A stretch of 64,000 nucleotides of DNA from Physcia stellaris (taxonomy: Eukaryota > Ascomycota > Lecanoromycetes > Caliciales > Physciaceae), in the NCBI GenBank assembly GCA_018902385.1, contig JABSSW010000004.1, positions 806,001 to 870,000 on the forward strand. Direction: 5' to 3'. A model generated the notes under the pieces. It was not told the DNA's origin. It ran no database searches and saw only the letters and a program-made list of their open reading frames with translations. The first letter of the stretch is position 1, and each line of letters opens with the position of its first letter. Below, one piece after another: positions 22,656-50,842 of this stretch. Position numbers and translations under genes: made by a program.

Positions 22656-22835
22656 TATGGCTGTCAATATCTTCGGTTTTCTCGACGCGCCGAGCAGATG
22701 GATCGCGGAAACTGATACGCTGAGTCAGCGGTTTTGCTCTTACTCAGGGTCTTCTTCCGAAGTCGTGGAACGGTAAATCGGCTCGCAATGTTCATGAATA
22801 TATTAATTCAAATAAGGTAATTTTCATTATCAACA

Positions 22836-22979
22836 CCCTTGGTGGTCTAGTTGGTTATGGCACCCGGCTGTAATGGATTTCTGTTACCGGGTTGTCGGCG
22901 GTTCGACTCCGGTAAGCAACTTCTTGACTATCACAAATTTCCTTGGACAATGCCTAACATTGTCAATAGCCCCAAGGGA
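22836..22979 (+). tRNA. tRNA-Tyr (anticodon GUA) with two introns
   Basis: Folding by eye gives a full tRNA once two insertions are removed: acceptor CCCTTGG (22,836-22,842) with CCAAGGG (22,972-22,978), D loop AGTTGGTTA, anticodon stem CCCGG/CCGGG around GTA (22,870-22,872), and T stem GGCGG/CCGCC with loop TTCGACT. The discriminator base is A (22,979) and the first pair is C1-G72, the known identity pair of eukaryotic tRNA-Tyr. Insertion 1 (22,874-22,885, 12 nt) is at the canonical position after base 37, where tRNA-Tyr genes normally carry an intron. Insertion 2 (22,912-22,969, 58 nt) follows base 63 in the T stem and looks like an mRNA-type intron. The A box (22,843-22,854) and B box (22,900-22,910, GGTTCGACTCC) are both intact. 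Without removing insertion 2, neither the T stem nor the acceptor stem pairs. Confidence 0.85.
22912..22969 (+). other. Candidate spliceosomal-type intron inside tRNA-Tyr
   Basis: 58 nt beginning GTAAGC, with CCTAAC 14-19 nt before the end and ending AATAG. The length, donor, branch site and acceptor match the mRNA introns of neighbouring genes (46-64 nt). Exact removal turns CTCCG/CCCCAAGGG into a perfect 5-bp T stem plus a perfect 7-bp acceptor stem. It lies 3' of the B box, so Pol III promoter elements are undisturbed. Splicing itself is inferred. Confidence 0.7.
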
Positions 22980-22995
22980 TCAATATAAATCATAA

Positions 22996-23003
22996 TTTTT
23001 TTT
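22996..23003 (+). terminator. Pol III T-run terminator for tRNA-Tyr
   Basis: Eight consecutive T residues, 17 bases after the tRNA 3' end. This is a standard RNA polymerase III stop and implies that the whole gene, including the 58-nt insertion, is transcribed as one unit. Confidence 0.75.
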
Positions 23004-41444: not shown

Positions 41445-44400
41445 AATGATAGCATCATAGATTCGATTTGTATTACGTATTTGACATCATTGATTGTCGA
41501 TCGAATACGTCGTTTTACATCAAATCGAGTTCGTCAACAATCAAACGCATTGTTTCAGCAGTTTCATTAACTTGACAGATCATTTGTCAGTTGTCAACTT
41601 TAGATCGTCGACTTAATTGTCGTGAAAAATCAATTTATTCATGAATTCGACACGTCATTCACAATCGAATGAGTTGACAAAACGCTCGAATCATAACGTG
41701 CGCGTTTATCAGCTTCAATATTTCGTTGTCGAAAAGTTTGAAACAAAAAAAATTTTCGTCGCATCGACTTTACAAGACAACTTAAACAACGAAGTTGTTT
41801 TTCAAAAATTTTTCGCAAATTTCAATTCAAACAATTTTACATCAACAATCTCGTTCTCAAATCAGCAATCGATTTTTATTTAGCTTGCGACTTCTCATCT
41901 TGTCAACTCTTTTCGAATTTGTTAAATGACGAATCACGTCAAACGAATTTGTCGTTCGAATATTTTTATTTTAACGTTTGCTTCTTTTAGTGTTTGTTTT
42001 TTCGAAAAGTCTCGTCATTTGTTTCAGGCAGTTTTTCGTTCATCTTGTTGATTTATTTTTGCTATTTTTATTTCATTGCATTTCGTTGTCATCGTTTGAC
42101 GCAATATTTGCTTTAATTGACAAATCATTGCAGTGTATCAGCTTGTCATTACATGACAGACATTTTTAGCTAGACAGTCAAGTTGATTTCGTCTGATATT
42201 TCAATCTCGCGTATTTCAATTCAATCGATGAGCAAAAAAATCGTCGTCATTGCGTGACATTTTTATGAATTTGAATTAACAAATCATTCGTTGACAAAAA
42301 TTTTATCAAAAAAAATCATTCAGACAGTGATAATTTTTGTAAGCATCAATTTTCGATCAGCAAAATCGTCAACAATTCGAAAAATCAAAGTAGCGTCAAT
42401 CGAATTTTTAAAATATTCGTCAAAGTGAATTATCAACATTGCTATTTTTAAAGCGATCGCTTCACGATTTTTTAAAGAAATCGAAAAATACAAACAGACA
42501 TTTGTTTATCAAAGCTTTCAATCTAGACAAAAAATCGAAACATTTGACGACAATTCGACATTTAATAATATTTCAATCATTTCGAATCGTAAAACAGCGA
42601 TATTTCAGATTATCGTTTCACGTATAAAAAGTCGATTTCGATACGAAAACGATATTTTCGTAATCGAACGAAATCAAGTTCAAGTTAAAATTTCTCGTGT
42701 TTCAAATTATTCATTTATTATCGATTCAAACAATCGCTTTATTATCGATAGTCAACAAGTCAACAATAATTTGTTTATCGATAACAATTCGACTATTACA
42801 CGCGAAACGTCAGTCGAAAAAGTCATATACGATCAATTCATAAAATTTAATTCAATAATTGTTTTCATGAATTCAATTTTTCAAGCAGTTATCACGACTG
42901 TCGTTAGTGTCGTCGTTATTCAGATTATCGAGAATATTAGAGCAAAAATACGTCAGAAAATGCAACAGATCAATCAGCGAAATCAACAGAAATCAATTGA
43001 ATTATTCGATTCATTCGATTCATCTGAAGATGACAATGATGACAATGACAATAATCAATTTCAGTCGAAGCATTTAAATTTTTTCGATTCGTTTCATGAC
43101 GACAAATTTGTAATTATCGACGCAATTATGAAATTTATTAGCGAAAACATCGTCTTTCGTAACGTTCATTTGTTCATGACTAAAGCAAGAAATTTCGTTG
43201 TTACAAAAAGCGAAAACATCGTACGTCGCAATCTTTTTCAATGTTTAAAAAATGACGTTTTGAACTGATATACGTCACTTTTTATCGACATGAAAAAGAA
43301 TTTCTTGTTATTAAGTCAAGGTCTAAATCAGTGAAAAAAGTATTTAGTAAAAAAATTTCGGAAATCGTCAACTAAAGTCATGAAAAAACTCGTCAAAAAA
43401 TCATACAGTATGACGAATGCACAGCATGAACGTGAATTTAAAAAATACGCGCAGAAAATAATTCGATTAAACAAGTCAATTGAATTGTCAATATTCAATC
43501 AATTATTACAAATTTGAAACGAATTCGACGTTGATTTTCAATTACACGTCAATAAATTTATCAATGACATCAAACTGAATGATTTTTTACGAGACTTGAA
43601 TGATCGAAAACATTCATGATGAAAATTGATTAACAAACAATTTTTCGAACAAATTGATCGACGAAAAATCAATGTCAAAAATAAAGACATTCGCGAGCAA
43701 CGAAAAAATAAACAATCACAACGTGACATGTCGAAAATAAATTATCGCGATCGCGATCAGTCAAATGTCGAATATGACGACAATGTTGTTGATGAATATA
43801 TTCAGAACGATTATTTTCGACTTGACATTCAATCAATTTTTATTTTTGCTCAATTTTCGAATTTCGTATCGCAAGACAATTATGTTTCGCAAAATTATGT
43901 TCAAATTTGAAATCAAAATCGTGTTTACATGCAACAACAACAATCAACAAGTCAATTTTCAAACGTACAACAATAACAATCGATTTTGTCAGTTTTTTCA
44001 TCACGCAAACAATTGACAACTGATTTTTCGAATCAAAATCAACGAAATCAGCAAAGAGAAAACGCGTCAAATTCGAATCGTCGATCATTTGTATCTTTTA
44101 ACGTCAACGCTCGTTCGTTTCAATCAATGTATTATAACGTCAACGTCGACGACGCTGACGTCAACGATGAAAACGTCTATTATGATGACAAAGCAATAAA
44201 CGATATTATTTTCGTCTGACACATTGTCGCGAAACGTTTTGTTGTCATCGAAAAAAATCAAAATCAATTTGAGTTTGTTTTTTTGAACGATTCAATCTTT
44301 CATTACGATTCGATGACTATGAACGCGTCGAAATTTTCATTTGACGTTGACGAATCAAACGTTAATCACGTAATTTTTCTTGATTACACGTGTCGAATGT

Positions 44401-44624
44401 GCAAGATTGATTTTTATTTCAACAACAAGTTATATCGTCACGTTCGTATTTGTCGCAAGAAACGTGTCAGTAATTTGTCGACTACTGAGTCAATGAACGC
44501 TTTTCACAAACATTCAATCGATGACAAAGTATTATCGATCGTCGAATTTACAATTATTATTATTTTCGACGTCGATTTTAATTTTCGTAAATGACATTAT
44601 GTTAAACTAAAAATCAGTCACAGT

Positions 44625-45353
44625 TTGAATGACAAGTTAGTCAAAATCTGCGCGAATATCGATTATACTATGTTTTTGATTGACAGAAAATATCTATTGA
44701 AAATTAAATTCGATGTCACAATTCACAAAACAAAGCAGTCGATTCGAATACATGACATCGACGACAAATTACATGACAGCTCAAAATATACAGAGTTGAA
44801 CTTTTACGTTGTCGATACGTTATCAAATCAGTCATCAATTATAGCTCACTTTCGTCGTGAAATTCATTTAATGAATGATTTGAAAATTCACGTTTTGCTC
44901 GATGTCGATATTCTAAAATTCGAGCAAGTAATATTTGACATGAACAAGCGTACTATCATCTTTCTCGTTTGTAACAATTTGACAATTTTCATGAAATTGA
45001 TTTTCAAAAATCAGCGCATTGTGCGAGCAATAAAATCAATTAACAAAATCATTATATTTTCGCATATTTGTTTAATTGTATTTGTCAAAATACGCGATCA
45101 AAGTCTGTCAACAAATAGAAATTACAGCTTCGAGTTTAAACAGAATTTTCAGCAATTAAAATTCGAAGATGATTTTTTCAATCACATTATCGATGCTCAT
45201 TTCGTCGTCGTACAAATACGAAACGCTATCAATAAATCAGTAATTTTGTCAAAACATGCAAAGATTGACATGCTACGCGACTTCGAGAAAAAAAATTGTT
45301 ATCATGTTTTTTTTGACGATCGACATTTAACAATCGTCTCGTCACGTAATTGA
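44625..45353 (+). pseudogene. Aspartic protease region of the nested Gypsy element (fossil)
   Basis: Open stretch of 242 codons resembling the retropepsin segment of a fungal Ty3/Gypsy family, including an IHLMNDLKIHVLLDVDIL block that corresponds to the usual VDDLKA.MLLG.DIL. It forms part of the broken gag-pol of the element. Confidence 0.7.
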
Positions 45354-47267
45354 ACGAAAACGTTACGTAATGTGATCATGATGAATTTAGTCGACGTCTT
45401 CGCTGATTTTATTACGTTTAACATTTTTTCGATTATCATTTTTATGCAAGTCAACTCGTCAGTTAACTCAGTATTTGATGTATCGATATTCGAAATTATT
45501 GTGTCATTTATTTCGTTGAAAATCGTCATGTCAAACGAGATCATCGTTTTTGACGATTCGTCTGTTTACAATCGACTTTTCACGATAGCGAAAGTTTATT
45601 TCGAAATTTGACGTGACATCGACGACACGATCAATGTGTTCGAAAAACAATGAATGTTTATATTTATTTTATTTGACGTTAAGTCGGAAATCAACAAAAT
45701 GTATTCATTTAATTCGAAAAATAAAAAAGTAATCGACAAGAAGTTCGATCGATTACATAAAAAAAACAAAATGACGTGAACTAGTCAATTTATCTCGTAT
45801 GATTATTCAATTTTCGTAATATGACGTATTGTCAACGAACAACGCAAAAGTCGCGTTGTAATAAATATTCGTGAATTAAATAAAATTTCGATGTTCGACG
45901 TTTATTTCATGTCGTTACAATCAAACATTCTGTCAACAGTTATCGATTGCTCGTACATATCGATGATGAACTGTGTCGATTTCTTTCATCAATGATTAAT
46001 ACGAATGATGAATAAACACAAGTTGACAGTGATCAGTCATCGAGACAACGAACAATGAAACGTAATTGTCATGAATTATCGCAATTCTTTTGTTTACGTT
46101 CAGCGACAAATCGATTCGATTTTATGAAAATATCGACACTTTGCTAGAACGTATGTAAACGACATAGTAATATTTTCGAACTCGTTAAAGAAACATTTAC
46201 GACATTTGAATCAAATTTTCGCTTTTTTCAAACGCATGAACATAATTCTCAAAATTAGCAAAATTTTTTTTGATTATTTTATCATATCACTGTTAAATCA
46301 ACGAATCGATAATTTGAAATTGATTATCGCGACGAATAAATTTGAAATTATTTTCGCTTTAATTTTTTTTCAAATTCTTAAACAGCTGAAAATCTATTTA
46401 AACAAAATCGAATGATTGCGTCAATACGTATCATATTATGCTCAAAAAGCGCTGTCATTACAAAAACGTAAAATTCGTCTGTTACGTCATGCATTTAACA
46501 AAAAGCGATTTCGTCAACAACATAATCGACGTATTTCAGTCGATAATTCGTCGTCGATCGAAATAAACGTCTTTAATCAATTACAAAGCGTTTTCAATCG
46601 ATCAACGTTTTTGATTCATTTCGACAAAATTAGAATTCTGTATATCGACGTGAACGTCAACAAAAAACGCGATTTTGATATTATGATTTATCACGTTAAA
46701 TTTAAAAACGAACAAAAAATGATGATTATCAACATTTCGTTCAAGCGAACGAACGTCGAACTCATTATGTTTTTAAACAAAATATTATCGTCAGCAAAGT
46801 TTCGTTACTGATCAACGAAATTGAAAATGACATCATTAATATGATTTGTTCGTAAATTTCGCTTGATGATCATGAACAATCAACATTCAATTGTCATTTA
46901 CATCGATCACGTCGCAAACTCGATTATTGTCAATCAAATTAAATTGATATTCAACAATGTAAATAAATTGAATTTCAAATTAATAAAAGTCAGCATTTAT
47001 TTTTTTCAATTTCGTCTCAAAGTTTTTCATAAAGTCGAAAAGTCTAATATCGTATCAAACGTTTTAAGTCGATTTTCAATCGTACGTCATTTCAATTCAG
47101 ATACAAAAATCGATAATTTTGATTTGAAAATTTATCATTTTCACATCGATAAATCAAATTTCAACGAGAATTCGATACGAATTACGTTAATCGAAATGTC
47201 ATCGAACTTTCGCAAGAAACTCATTATCGAATATCAAAAAAACGTTAACTGAAAAGTCATTCTCGAT

Positions 47268-47921
47268 TTGCTGAAACGTTTCGTCAACGACGACGTTAAA
47301 AATCGATTATCGAACAAAAAATCGACGATTATCGAAAAAATGTCAAACGCGAAATCATTCACGATCATTTTCACGTCGACATTTTTTAGCGAAAACGAAA
47401 TCACAGAAATCGTCATTTTTGTGTCGTTTACAGCGTTTGTTTCGTCGTCGAATAAAATCACGATGTCAAATAAAAAATCATTTTCGAATTCAACATATTT
47501 GATTTCTGAAATCGATTTTCAGCTTATCGACGATTTTATTTACTATGTAAAAAGCGATTCATTTAAACTATGCATATCGGAAAATAGTATACACGACGTG
47601 TTCAAGTTAGCACATGACGACAATTTTCATGTCGATCATCATCGAATTTACGATCGATTAAAAACAGTTTACGTACGACGACTTTTCAAACGATTAATCA
47701 ATTACATTCGTCATTGCTTTTCGTGTCAATTGAATCAAACTAAACGACATAAATTTTATGAGAAATTAGCATCGATAAATATTTTCAACATGTTTTATCA
47801 TACGATATCGATTGATTTTGTATTGATTTTATTTAAACAAAATCACGAATTCGATTGTTTCATGTTCGTTATTGACAAATTCACTCGAAAAACACTATTG
47901 ATTCAAAGAAAAAGCACATGA
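47268..47921 (+). pseudogene. Integrase N-terminal region of the nested Gypsy element (fossil)
   Basis: Contains the HHCC zinc-binding pattern (His residues near HDDNFHVDHH, Cys pair in HCFSCQ) followed by the beginning of the integrase core. Its place after RT/RNase H confirms Ty3/Gypsy order. Confidence 0.75.
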
Positions 47922-49738
47922 TCAATCGACGAATGAACAAACGTTTTGATCGACCGACTGTTGCTGGCAGATTGAAATATTTCAGCAAAAATCATTTTCG
48001 ATCGAGATCGAAAATTCTGTTTCGATTTCTGGCGAGTCATGTTCAAACGTTTAAACATTAATTTATTCATGAACACGATTTATCATTCACAAACGAATGA
48101 TCAATCGAAACGTACAAATCAAACAGTGAAAATTGCGCTTCGATTTCTTATTATCGTCAATCTCAATATGAATTAAATGAGCGCGTTGTCAATTTTGCAA
48201 TTCAATTTGAACAACAATGTACATGCAATCATTGAAAAATTTTTTAATCAAATCGTTATCGATTTTCAATTCAAAGAAATTATGATCGCGATAGTCGTGT
48301 CATTTGCTTTACGACAATCGTCAAACACGATTATTTCAATCGCTAAATCGAAATTCGAAAAGAATCGCTTTGTTTTTCAAAAAAAAATTGACGATATCAT
48401 CGCTTTCGCAACAACGAAAATTAAAATTTTTTATGATAAACGTCATCAACGTTTAAAATTTAATTTCGAAAATAAAGCGTATTTTCGTTTGCATCACGAA
48501 TATTCTTTTTCGTTTCAAATCAATGTTAAACTGTCTAATCAAAAAATCGAATCGTTTTTGATAAAGCGCAAAATAAAAAATTTGCTTACGAATTGAATTT
48601 GTCGCTCAAATGACAAATTCATTCAGTCATATTCATCATGCAATTGAAATCGACGTCAAAAAACGTCGATTTTTATAATCGATTTCGTTCGAATCATCTC
48701 GACGTCGTCGAGATGAAAAACACATTTAACATTTTCTGAAAAAAATTTTACGAAATAAAAAAGCTGATGAAAAAAAGAAATCGAAAGTACGACAAAATCA
48801 AAATAATGAAATATTTGATAAAATGATTAAATTATGAATTTGAATTTGATGAATGAAAATCATTATCAATTTTAACGAATTTCATGATTTTGATGAAGAA
48901 TTACGAAAAAATCAATTTTCAATCAATTACATCAATTTCAAACACGACTCGCGTTATCGATTTTATATCATCGATTTCGAAAAATTCAAGACGCAAACGA
49001 AATAAATTCAACAAAATTGTCGTCGAAAATCAACAAAAGCGCAAAAAAATCGACTCAAAAAAATCAACGCATTTTGAGTAAATGCGTACGTTGATTTCGT
49101 CGACGAGTAAATTTTATCATTCTCGTTATTTAAATATTATTAAACAGTCTCGCTCAATATTTTAGCGTTTCGTTTAATAGACATTGTCGCGTCGTTAATC
49201 GAATATCGCGAATTTTCATTTTGAATTTTCATTTTGAATTTTCATTTCGAATTATCATTTTTATTTTTTATTTTCGCTTTGCTCGTCGCTAAGATTGATT
49301 TATCGTTATTCAAATATGATTACATTCAGTTTTCAACATCGTCAAATGCATTTTTTAATTAATTTTAATTGAAACGCGTCAGTCGTTTTCGAAATTGCAA
49401 AAATGTTTCACGATCGATTTGTACATCAAGCATTTTTCGAATACGATCTTTATAATGTGCGCTCATTCAGTGAAAATTCAGTTTGATTGAATGCTTTGTC
49501 AAAAAAAATAGTACTCTTCGACGATTTTCTTTGAATCGTGAAAAACAAATACGACATTTTCAGCAAAGTCAAAAAACAGCGTTTTTCGACTGACTTTGCT
49601 AGCAAAAAAGAAATTCATGATAATCGTTCGCATAAAGAAAAAATCGTCAAATACAATGACGACGCAAAAACGTGATATTATCGTCAAACGTTTATTCAGA
49701 ACGACGATTCATATATCTTGTGAAAAAATGAAAACGAA

Positions 49739-50842
49739 ATGACATATGATAATTTATCGAAAAATCAACGTGATATCATGACAAAATTGTCAATTGCAAT
49801 GCAAAATAACAATGATTTTATCGTTGTTGAATTCAACGATGCACTAATCATAAATCTTGATAACACGTTTGATTTCGATTTAATCAGTTTTGTCAATTTC
49901 AATACTGTTTTTGTTATCGTCAGTAGCAGCAAGACAAAGTCGACATTTTCAATCGTCGTTAACAAAAACGACGTCGATGATGAAAACTCAATGTCGACGA
50001 ACAAAGTCGACAAAATTCAAAAAAAGAAACGAATTACGAAACGTGTCAATGCATTCAAACGACGCAAACAAATTCATTTATTGATTCGCGATTTGATGAA
50101 TGACGAAGTCGTGAAAAACGAAATTTTGATAAAAAGGTCGACAAACAATCAAAAAAAATCGAAAAAATCGAAAAAGTTTGACAGCGACGAGAACGCTGAT
50201 AACGCGCAAATCAGCAAAAAAATAATGTTCGAAAAAAACATGAAATCAATCGACATTGACAAAACAATTGACAAGAACATCAAGATTGATTTCATCAAAA
50301 CGCTCAAGTCGAAAAAGAATGAAAACAGCGAAAACAAAACAATTGACAAAACAATTGACAAAAGCATCAAGATTGATTTCAACAAAACGTTCAAATCGAA
50401 GAAAGATGAGAACAACGACGAATTGCTCACTGATATTCAATTGAGCAAATTTCGATATCATGATTTTTTGTTCAACGAAGAACTAAAAGACGTCGAAATT
50501 CTTTTGAATTTCGTACGAAAATTCGACAATCAGATTTTTGAACTATTTCAGCGCATCGAAATCATTTTAACAGATTTCGATGAATGTACGATGTCAATTG
50601 TTGAAAAAGTCGCAATCGACGAGTTTATCGAGACGTATCGAATCTGTCGAAATCAAAAAACGAAAATGAAAATCACACTGATCAACAAGCGTTCTGATTT
50701 AGTCAAATTGATAATTCAACATATCGATTCAATCGTCAAAAATGTTGATCGCAATTTTTTAAACGTTTGTTACGTCGTCGTTCGCAAAAAACGCTTTCGA
50801 TCGAACATTAACATCGAACACGATGTTTTCAAAGAATATTGA
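49739..50842 (+). pseudogene. Extra ORF between integrase and the right LTR (fossil, unknown function)
   Basis: A 367-codon stretch downstream of pol and before the 3' LTR. It is Lys/Asp/Asn-rich, with a basic middle part (KKSKKSKKF) and an imperfect repeat of about 40-50 residues built on the core TIDK.IKIDF..T.KSKK.E. The C-terminal third looks more like a folded domain. I see no signal peptide, no membrane segment and no resemblance to an envelope protein. Its true role is unknown, and its present sequence is distorted by mutation. Confidence 0.5.

Follow-up and report, generated by a model that had tools for sequence, protein, structure and literature searches.

The tRNA-Tyr gene analysed here is interrupted after base 63 by a 58-nt insert that is very probably a U2-type spliceosomal intron in a Pol III-transcribed gene, and tRNA introns of this type would number at least five in the genome (Tyr 63/64, Asn 3/4, Ala-UGC 5/6, Arg-CCG 9/10 and Ser-UGA 9/10; perhaps also Phe 15/16). 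The GT...AG pattern common to five genes, together with the equal spacing between the branch-like A and the end of the insert, is hard to explain except by mRNA-type introns. We also consider it likely on the whole that the nuclear tRNA set of the fungus has been colonised by spliceosomal introns, some of them inside the internal promoter or 5' of it. If no copies exist beyond the single loci found, decoding of the whole codon families UAU/UAC and AAU/AAC would then need the spliceosome to act on Pol III transcripts, and several tRNAs would need two unrelated splicing machineries.

Anatomy of the tRNA-Tyr locus

The locus lies in the window, which is the whole 64-kb stretch of DNA that was analysed, and consists of the following parts.

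22797-22804 and 22811-22816, plus strand: upstream promoter-like elements, AATATATT and AATAAG, respectively (sequence reading)
22836-22873, plus strand: exon 1, with the 5' acceptor, D arm and anticodon GTA (sequence, ARAGORN, covariance model)
22843-22854, plus strand: A box TGGTCTAGTTGG in exon 1
22874-22885, plus strand: canonical 12-nt tRNA intron at 37/38 (sequence reading, ARAGORN)
22886-22911, plus strand: exon 2, ending at base 63 (sequence, covariance model)
22900-22910, plus strand: B box GGTTCGACTCC in exon 2
22912-22969, plus strand: 58-nt mRNA-type insert after base 63, GTAAGC...CCTAAC...AATAG
22912-22917, plus strand: GTAAGC, 5' end of the insert
22946-22964, plus strand: perfect 7-bp inverted repeat GACAATG-CCTAA-CATTGTC within the insert, the loop CCTAA being most of the branch-site motif
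22954-22958, plus strand: CTAAC in the insert, with the branch-like A at 22957, 12 nt before the last G
22970-22979, plus strand: exon 3 (bases 64-73, 3' acceptor, discriminator A)
22996-23003, plus strand: T8, Pol III terminator-like (sequence reading)

The joined tRNA-Tyr is 74 nt long, with A73 and complete pairing in the acceptor stem (7/7) and the T stem (5/5). ARAGORN calls tRNA-Tyr(gta) when the 58 nt are left out and returns nothing for the locus as it is. An Rfam scan of the locus as it stands gives no match, and nothing was found when the whole window was scanned with Rfam at the gathering threshold and with ARAGORN. R1, a covariance model covering tRNA positions 8-62, was built from 22 tRNAs of the genome other than Tyr; its top match in the window is at 22843-22909 (E 5e-7), and the next match has an E value of 1.1. 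Removal of the insert in either of two registers gives an identical tRNA product; only one register has GT...AG ends. The locus combines a complete cloverleaf after removal of the inserts, the anticodon GUA, A and B boxes and a T run, a kind of sequence established as a Pol III terminator and predicted to act as one here; expression of the gene is predicted.

These results bear out the anatomy given in the original prediction. The ARAGORN calls before and after removal agree with the proposed tRNA-Tyr(GUA) with two insertions, the claimed acceptor and T-stem pairing and discriminator A are seen in the joined gene, the positions and signals of the 12-nt and 58-nt insertions were re-read from the sequence, and the intact A and B boxes upstream of the longer insertion and the T8 downstream of it are placed by coordinates.

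The neighbour of the tRNA-Tyr gene, on the opposite strand, is an ALG6/ALG8-kind gene (PF03155). The named organisms among the best 120 relatives of its protein are lichen-forming Lecanoromycetes with ~64-71% identity, and one match has 97%; this homology suggests that the host is a lichen-forming ascomycete.

Copy number and other interrupted tRNA genes

The genome assembly comprises 43.97 Mb in 147 contigs and may be incomplete. On the question of other tRNA-Tyr loci, raised with the original prediction, BLAST, sequence patterns (for one pattern among the 100 of 172 places listed) and RF00005 gave no second tRNA-Tyr in the 44-Mb assembly. BLAST with the full 144 bp and with the joined 74-mer matched the tRNA-Tyr locus alone. 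The patterns CTGTAA-N5-35-GGTTCRA and TGTA-N22-52-GGTTCRANYCC occur at 40 and 24 places (all listed), of which 30 and 24, respectively, were cut out; R1 scored 29 and 23 of them, Tyr itself being left out, and no other tRNA-Tyr was among the scored loci. Beyond known tRNAs, only a repeat family exceeded 13.5 bits. This family, CTGTAAGTAAGCACTTTCCACCC (L014, L021, L029 and L033; 17-23 bits with R1), has tRNA-like features and is perhaps a tRNA-derived SINE. The third pattern, TGTAA-N8-38-GTTCRANYC, occurs at 172 places, and inspection by eye of the 100 listed gave no further Tyr. The genome search with RF00005, in which 63 of 1546 candidates were scored, listed 34 matches and no Tyr among them.

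ARAGORN accepts 32 of these 34 matches as complete tRNAs and gives an anticodon-loop intron in 22 of the 32; the other two matches, L089 and L087, are interrupted genes. Perfect B boxes occur 240 times in the genome, and 91 of the 100 listed were cut out, the other nine being eight known tRNAs and Tyr; imperfect B boxes were reached only through RF00005 and the patterns. On the 91 loci, R1 produced a single strong match (L181, 44.5 bits) and Rfam, with E up to 0.1, produced three (L181, L127 and L123), so that L123, with only 10.9 bits in R1, was detected by the Rfam scan. A tRNA-Phe pattern occurs at 129 places, and of the 100 listed two likely-looking ones were examined, which yielded L187. 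The interrupted genes found in this way are listed below.

L089, tRNA-Arg(CCG): split 9/10 by 53 nt, GTATGT...GACTAAT...TTTAG, with the 5' acceptor and bases 8-9 upstream
L087, tRNA-Ala(UGC): split 5/6 by 54 nt, GTAAAT...CTGAC...TATAG
L181, tRNA-Asn(GUU): split 3/4 by 49 nt, GTAAGC...GCTTAC...CCCAG
L123, tRNA-Ser(UGA): split 9/10 by 57 nt, GTAAGG...CTGAC...GCAG
L187, tRNA-Phe(GAA), G000:C18:152560-152960, minus strand: split 15/16 by 51 nt, GGACGC...GCTAACTGATCAATAG

Four tRNA genes besides Tyr therefore carry GT...AG inserts, of 49-57 nt, and the claim of a single case does not stand. RF00005 covers only positions 9-63 of the unspliced L089 and L123 and only 5-66 of L087, and R1 scores L089 at 47 bits and L087 at 41 bits. 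For Tyr, Arg, Ala, Asn and Ser, ARAGORN reports a complete tRNA only after the insert is removed, all five joined tRNAs have 7/7 acceptor pairs, and all five have a GT...AG register at the exact junctions. BLAST with the joined tRNA-Asn matched the L181 locus alone. The joined Ala gene regains G3-U70, the alanine identity pair, and in its T stem T53-A61 replaces G53-C61. A second, anticodon-loop intron of 12-18 nt is found at or next to 37/38 in Tyr, Asn, Ala, Ser and Phe; compared with these canonical nuclear introns, the extra inserts differ in position, length and signals.

The Phe locus scores 18.2 bits with R1, has no Rfam match in unspliced form and is complete once the 51 nt are removed. 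Its insert has a 3' end like that of the other inserts (CTAAC...TAG) and a 5' GG in every register, never GT; the site may be non-canonical, the gene decayed or the sequence in error. tRNA-Phe was left out of the five counted GT...AG cases for its GG...AG register. Among five inserts (Ser left out), the similarity of all 10 pairs is inside the range of shuffled scores.

Several other candidates were rejected or relabelled. L087 was considered as tRNA-Cys and rejected, since ARAGORN and G3-U70 indicate Ala-UGC, and L158 and L125 were rejected as tRNAs since ARAGORN detects none. The ARAGORN labels Val (L081), Ile (L072) and SeC (L080) are by eye better read as Ile(AAU), Lys(CUU) and Leu(CAG), respectively. 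A tRNA-Ile pattern occurs at three places, one of which is a known tRNA. Relatives were sought with one DNA pattern, which has no match in viral contigs and one in genome contigs, L092, on a bacterial MAG contig where ARAGORN detects no tRNA.

A few tRNA-like loci are recorded as side observations. L127 (G000:C3:1054599-1055049, minus strand) is tRNA-like, with 46 bits to RF00005 and ~93 extra nt in the anticodon arm, and has no sensible anticodon (ACT according to ARAGORN). L076 (G000:C8:346755-347066) is Met(CAU) in ARAGORN and has a long anticodon-arm insert; Ile(UAU) is an alternative reading. The 5' flanks of L066, a tRNA-Leu(UAA), and L070, a tRNA-Ser(CGA), are closed by AACCCTAACCCTAA, two telomere-type repeats.

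Insert signals and promoter position

U2-type introns follow the consensus GTRNGY at the 5' splice site and have a branch site CTRAY shortly before the AG. GTRNGY is strictly present in 3/5 tRNA inserts, with deviations in Ala (GTAAAT) and Ser (GTAAGG), and CTRAY in 4/5, the Asn insert having CTTAC. The distance from the branch-like A to the last G is 12 nt in Tyr, 11 in Arg, 13 in Ala, 11 in Asn and 12 in Ser; the Arg insert has a second CTNAY word 19 nt away. Tyr and Arg have both motifs, as do 0.3-1.1% of shuffled inserts, and GTRNGY combined with CTRAY at 8-25 nt before the end is found in 0.6% of shuffled Tyr inserts. Three mRNA introns mapped in the window are 49, 50 and 49 nt long and start with GTACGT, GTAGGA and GTAAGA; one of the three strictly matches GTRNGY, and two have CTNAY (CTGAC, 15 and 10 nt from the end). 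The proposed match in size between the Tyr insert and neighbouring mRNA introns needs a small correction, the 58-nt insert being somewhat longer than these. Strict intron motifs are not enriched in the window (7+3 versus 10+16 in reversed controls), so the case rests on the exact boundaries.

The boundaries were compared with chance by fixing GT at the 5' end and seeking an AG that restores all pairs in dinucleotide shuffles of the flank (n=20000). Full pairing is restored in 1 shuffle for Arg, 36 for Ser, 41 for Tyr, 210 for Ala and 9303 for Asn. The Asn split itself is weak on this test because only three bases are needed; this gene is supported instead by its 5' site GTAAGC, the promoter motif and the absence of another tRNA-Asn match. 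The GT...AG ends, the branch spacing and the length fit removal by the spliceosome.

The inserts could alternatively be tRNA-type introns at unusual positions that are cut by a relaxed tRNA splicing endonuclease. Ectopic tRNA introns of this kind exist in Cyanidioschyzon merolae, where they are attributed to recognition of the bulge-helix-bulge (BHB) motif by the endonuclease, and in the Guillardia theta nucleomorph, where many are without a defined BHB motif; as in these genomes, several tRNA genes here are interrupted away from 37/38 (the available text of PMC3978253). The anticodon-loop introns in 22/32 intact tRNA genes make an active endonuclease likely in this genome. Against such cutting, the positions 63/64, 3/4, 5/6, 9/10 and 9/10 are away from 37/38, and a simple test for the BHB central helix at the junctions of five inserts found the 4-bp helix in none of them (best 3/4 pairs); unlike in C. 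merolae, the inserts have no BHB in this test and carry spliceosomal signals. Endonuclease introns are not expected to have GT...AG ends and a branch-like A at 11-13 nt from the 3' end, and 0/22 anticodon-loop introns are GT...AG as cut by ARAGORN, whose cuts may be off by a base or two. We therefore regard endonuclease cutting of the extra inserts as improbable.

AATAAG is located between -50 and -15 in 11/32 intact tRNA genes (at -36 to -22; 0.9 expected by shuffling), and this motif, which a TATA-like stretch often precedes, resembles an upstream promoter element of Pol III genes. It precedes exon 1 in five of the six interrupted genes, at -25 in Tyr, -34 in Ala, -43 in Asn (outside the -36 to -22 range of the intact genes), -30 in Phe and -21 in Ser, with a chance expectation of about 0.01-0.03 per interrupted gene (0.008 for Ser). 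Counted from the body as if unspliced, AATAAG is at the expected place in 0/5 (Arg, Ala, Asn, Phe and Ser). The motif was chosen after inspection of the first five flanks, and Ser, found later, is an independent test. Arg has no AATAAG before exon 1, and the looser AATAA (20/32 intact genes, 5.6 expected) occurs in Arg 30 nt before the body, against the pattern. Tyr, Arg and Ala have a TATA-like AATATATT 5' of exon 1. Since AATAAG precedes exon 1 in 5/6 interrupted genes, exon 1 and the insert seem to belong to the transcription unit. Three of the interrupted genes, Tyr, Ala and Asn, keep an intact A box; in Arg and Ser its bases 8-9 lie in the upstream exon, and in Phe the split at 15/16 runs through it. 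T runs are in place at the interrupted loci.

A slightly less probable reading, which we likewise regard as improbable, is that the interrupted genes are dead or are tRNA pieces brought together by chance, with functional tRNAs supplied by loci absent from the assembly or missed by the searches. The tRNA inventory is partial, as RF00005 scored 63 of the 1546 candidates and several isoacceptors were not located; copies of Arg(CCG), Ala(UGC), Ser(UGA) and Phe were sought by RF00005 and patterns only, and the Phe insert begins with GG. However, the exons are intact with full acceptor stems, the promoter motif and T runs are present, BLAST with joined Tyr and Asn gives one locus each, and exact GT...AG junctions would not result from decay.

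A group I intron is preceded by a U as the last base of the 5' exon. The last 5' exon bases at the five inserts are G, G, G, C and G, never U, and GT...CTNAY...AG is not a group I feature, which makes it highly improbable that the inserts are small degenerate group I introns, as has been argued for the short introns (56-81 nt) of SSU rRNA genes in Phialophora and lichens, although the size range overlaps and a 67-nt Phialophora intron is reported to splice in vitro (PMC3160393, in part).

Proposed processing and relation to known systems

With spliceosomal introns as the preferred reading, a maturation pathway may be proposed. TFIIIC and TFIIIB would assemble on the A and B boxes and the upstream TATA/AATAAG elements, and Pol III would transcribe the leader, exons and inserts as far as the T run. 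The spliceosome would remove the GT-AG intron in the nucleus, and it would probably act first because the acceptor and T stems, which would form only after this step, are needed before end processing by RNase P and RNase Z. The short 37/38 intron, where present, would be cut separately by the tRNA endonuclease and ligase; its presence at or next to 37/38 in Tyr, Asn, Ala, Ser and Phe implies two machineries on one precursor. The introns most likely originated by ectopic reverse splicing.

Certain RNAs made by Pol I or Pol III are known to carry spliceosomal introns. As the original prediction stated for fungal U6, the U6 RNA of Schizosaccharomyces pombe is made by Pol III and contains an intron of mRNA type (PMC8917221, in part). 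Unlike that U6, the host here is tRNA, with inserts in several genes and at several positions, some of them inside the A box or upstream of it. The U6 of the present genome has a match spanning all 105 model positions and no intron. In lichen rDNA, a 57-bp spliceosomal intron is spliced from Pol I rRNA in yeast (PMC8527467, in part). The present inserts resemble the lichen rDNA introns as ectopic spliceosomal introns in non-coding RNA, in what protein homology suggests is the same kind of fungus, and differ in that the host RNA of the latter is made by Pol I; the word tRNA does not occur in PMC8527467. A tRNA gene with a spliceosomal intron, in fungi as claimed originally or elsewhere, is not described in the open-access literature searched, which mostly excludes subscription papers and excludes all bioRxiv preprints, hence the novelty is unproven.

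If the reading is true, the spliceosome handles tRNA precursors with a broken fold, Pol III tolerates A boxes that are ~50 nt off the 5' end or cut through, and intron spread reaches beyond mRNA. It would also account for essential tRNAs that escape tRNA finders in such genomes. A dependence of tRNA supply on mRNA splicing capacity could arise and growth could be slowed, as has been suggested for the lichen rDNA introns. With several separate insertions in one genome, one could test directly how the introns were gained, in what order processing runs and whether it is coupled to the supply of tRNAs.

Elsewhere in the window, at ~42429-50842 on the plus strand, open frames encoding N/I/K/D-rich proteins resemble transposable-element genes lying in an AT-rich, mutated block.
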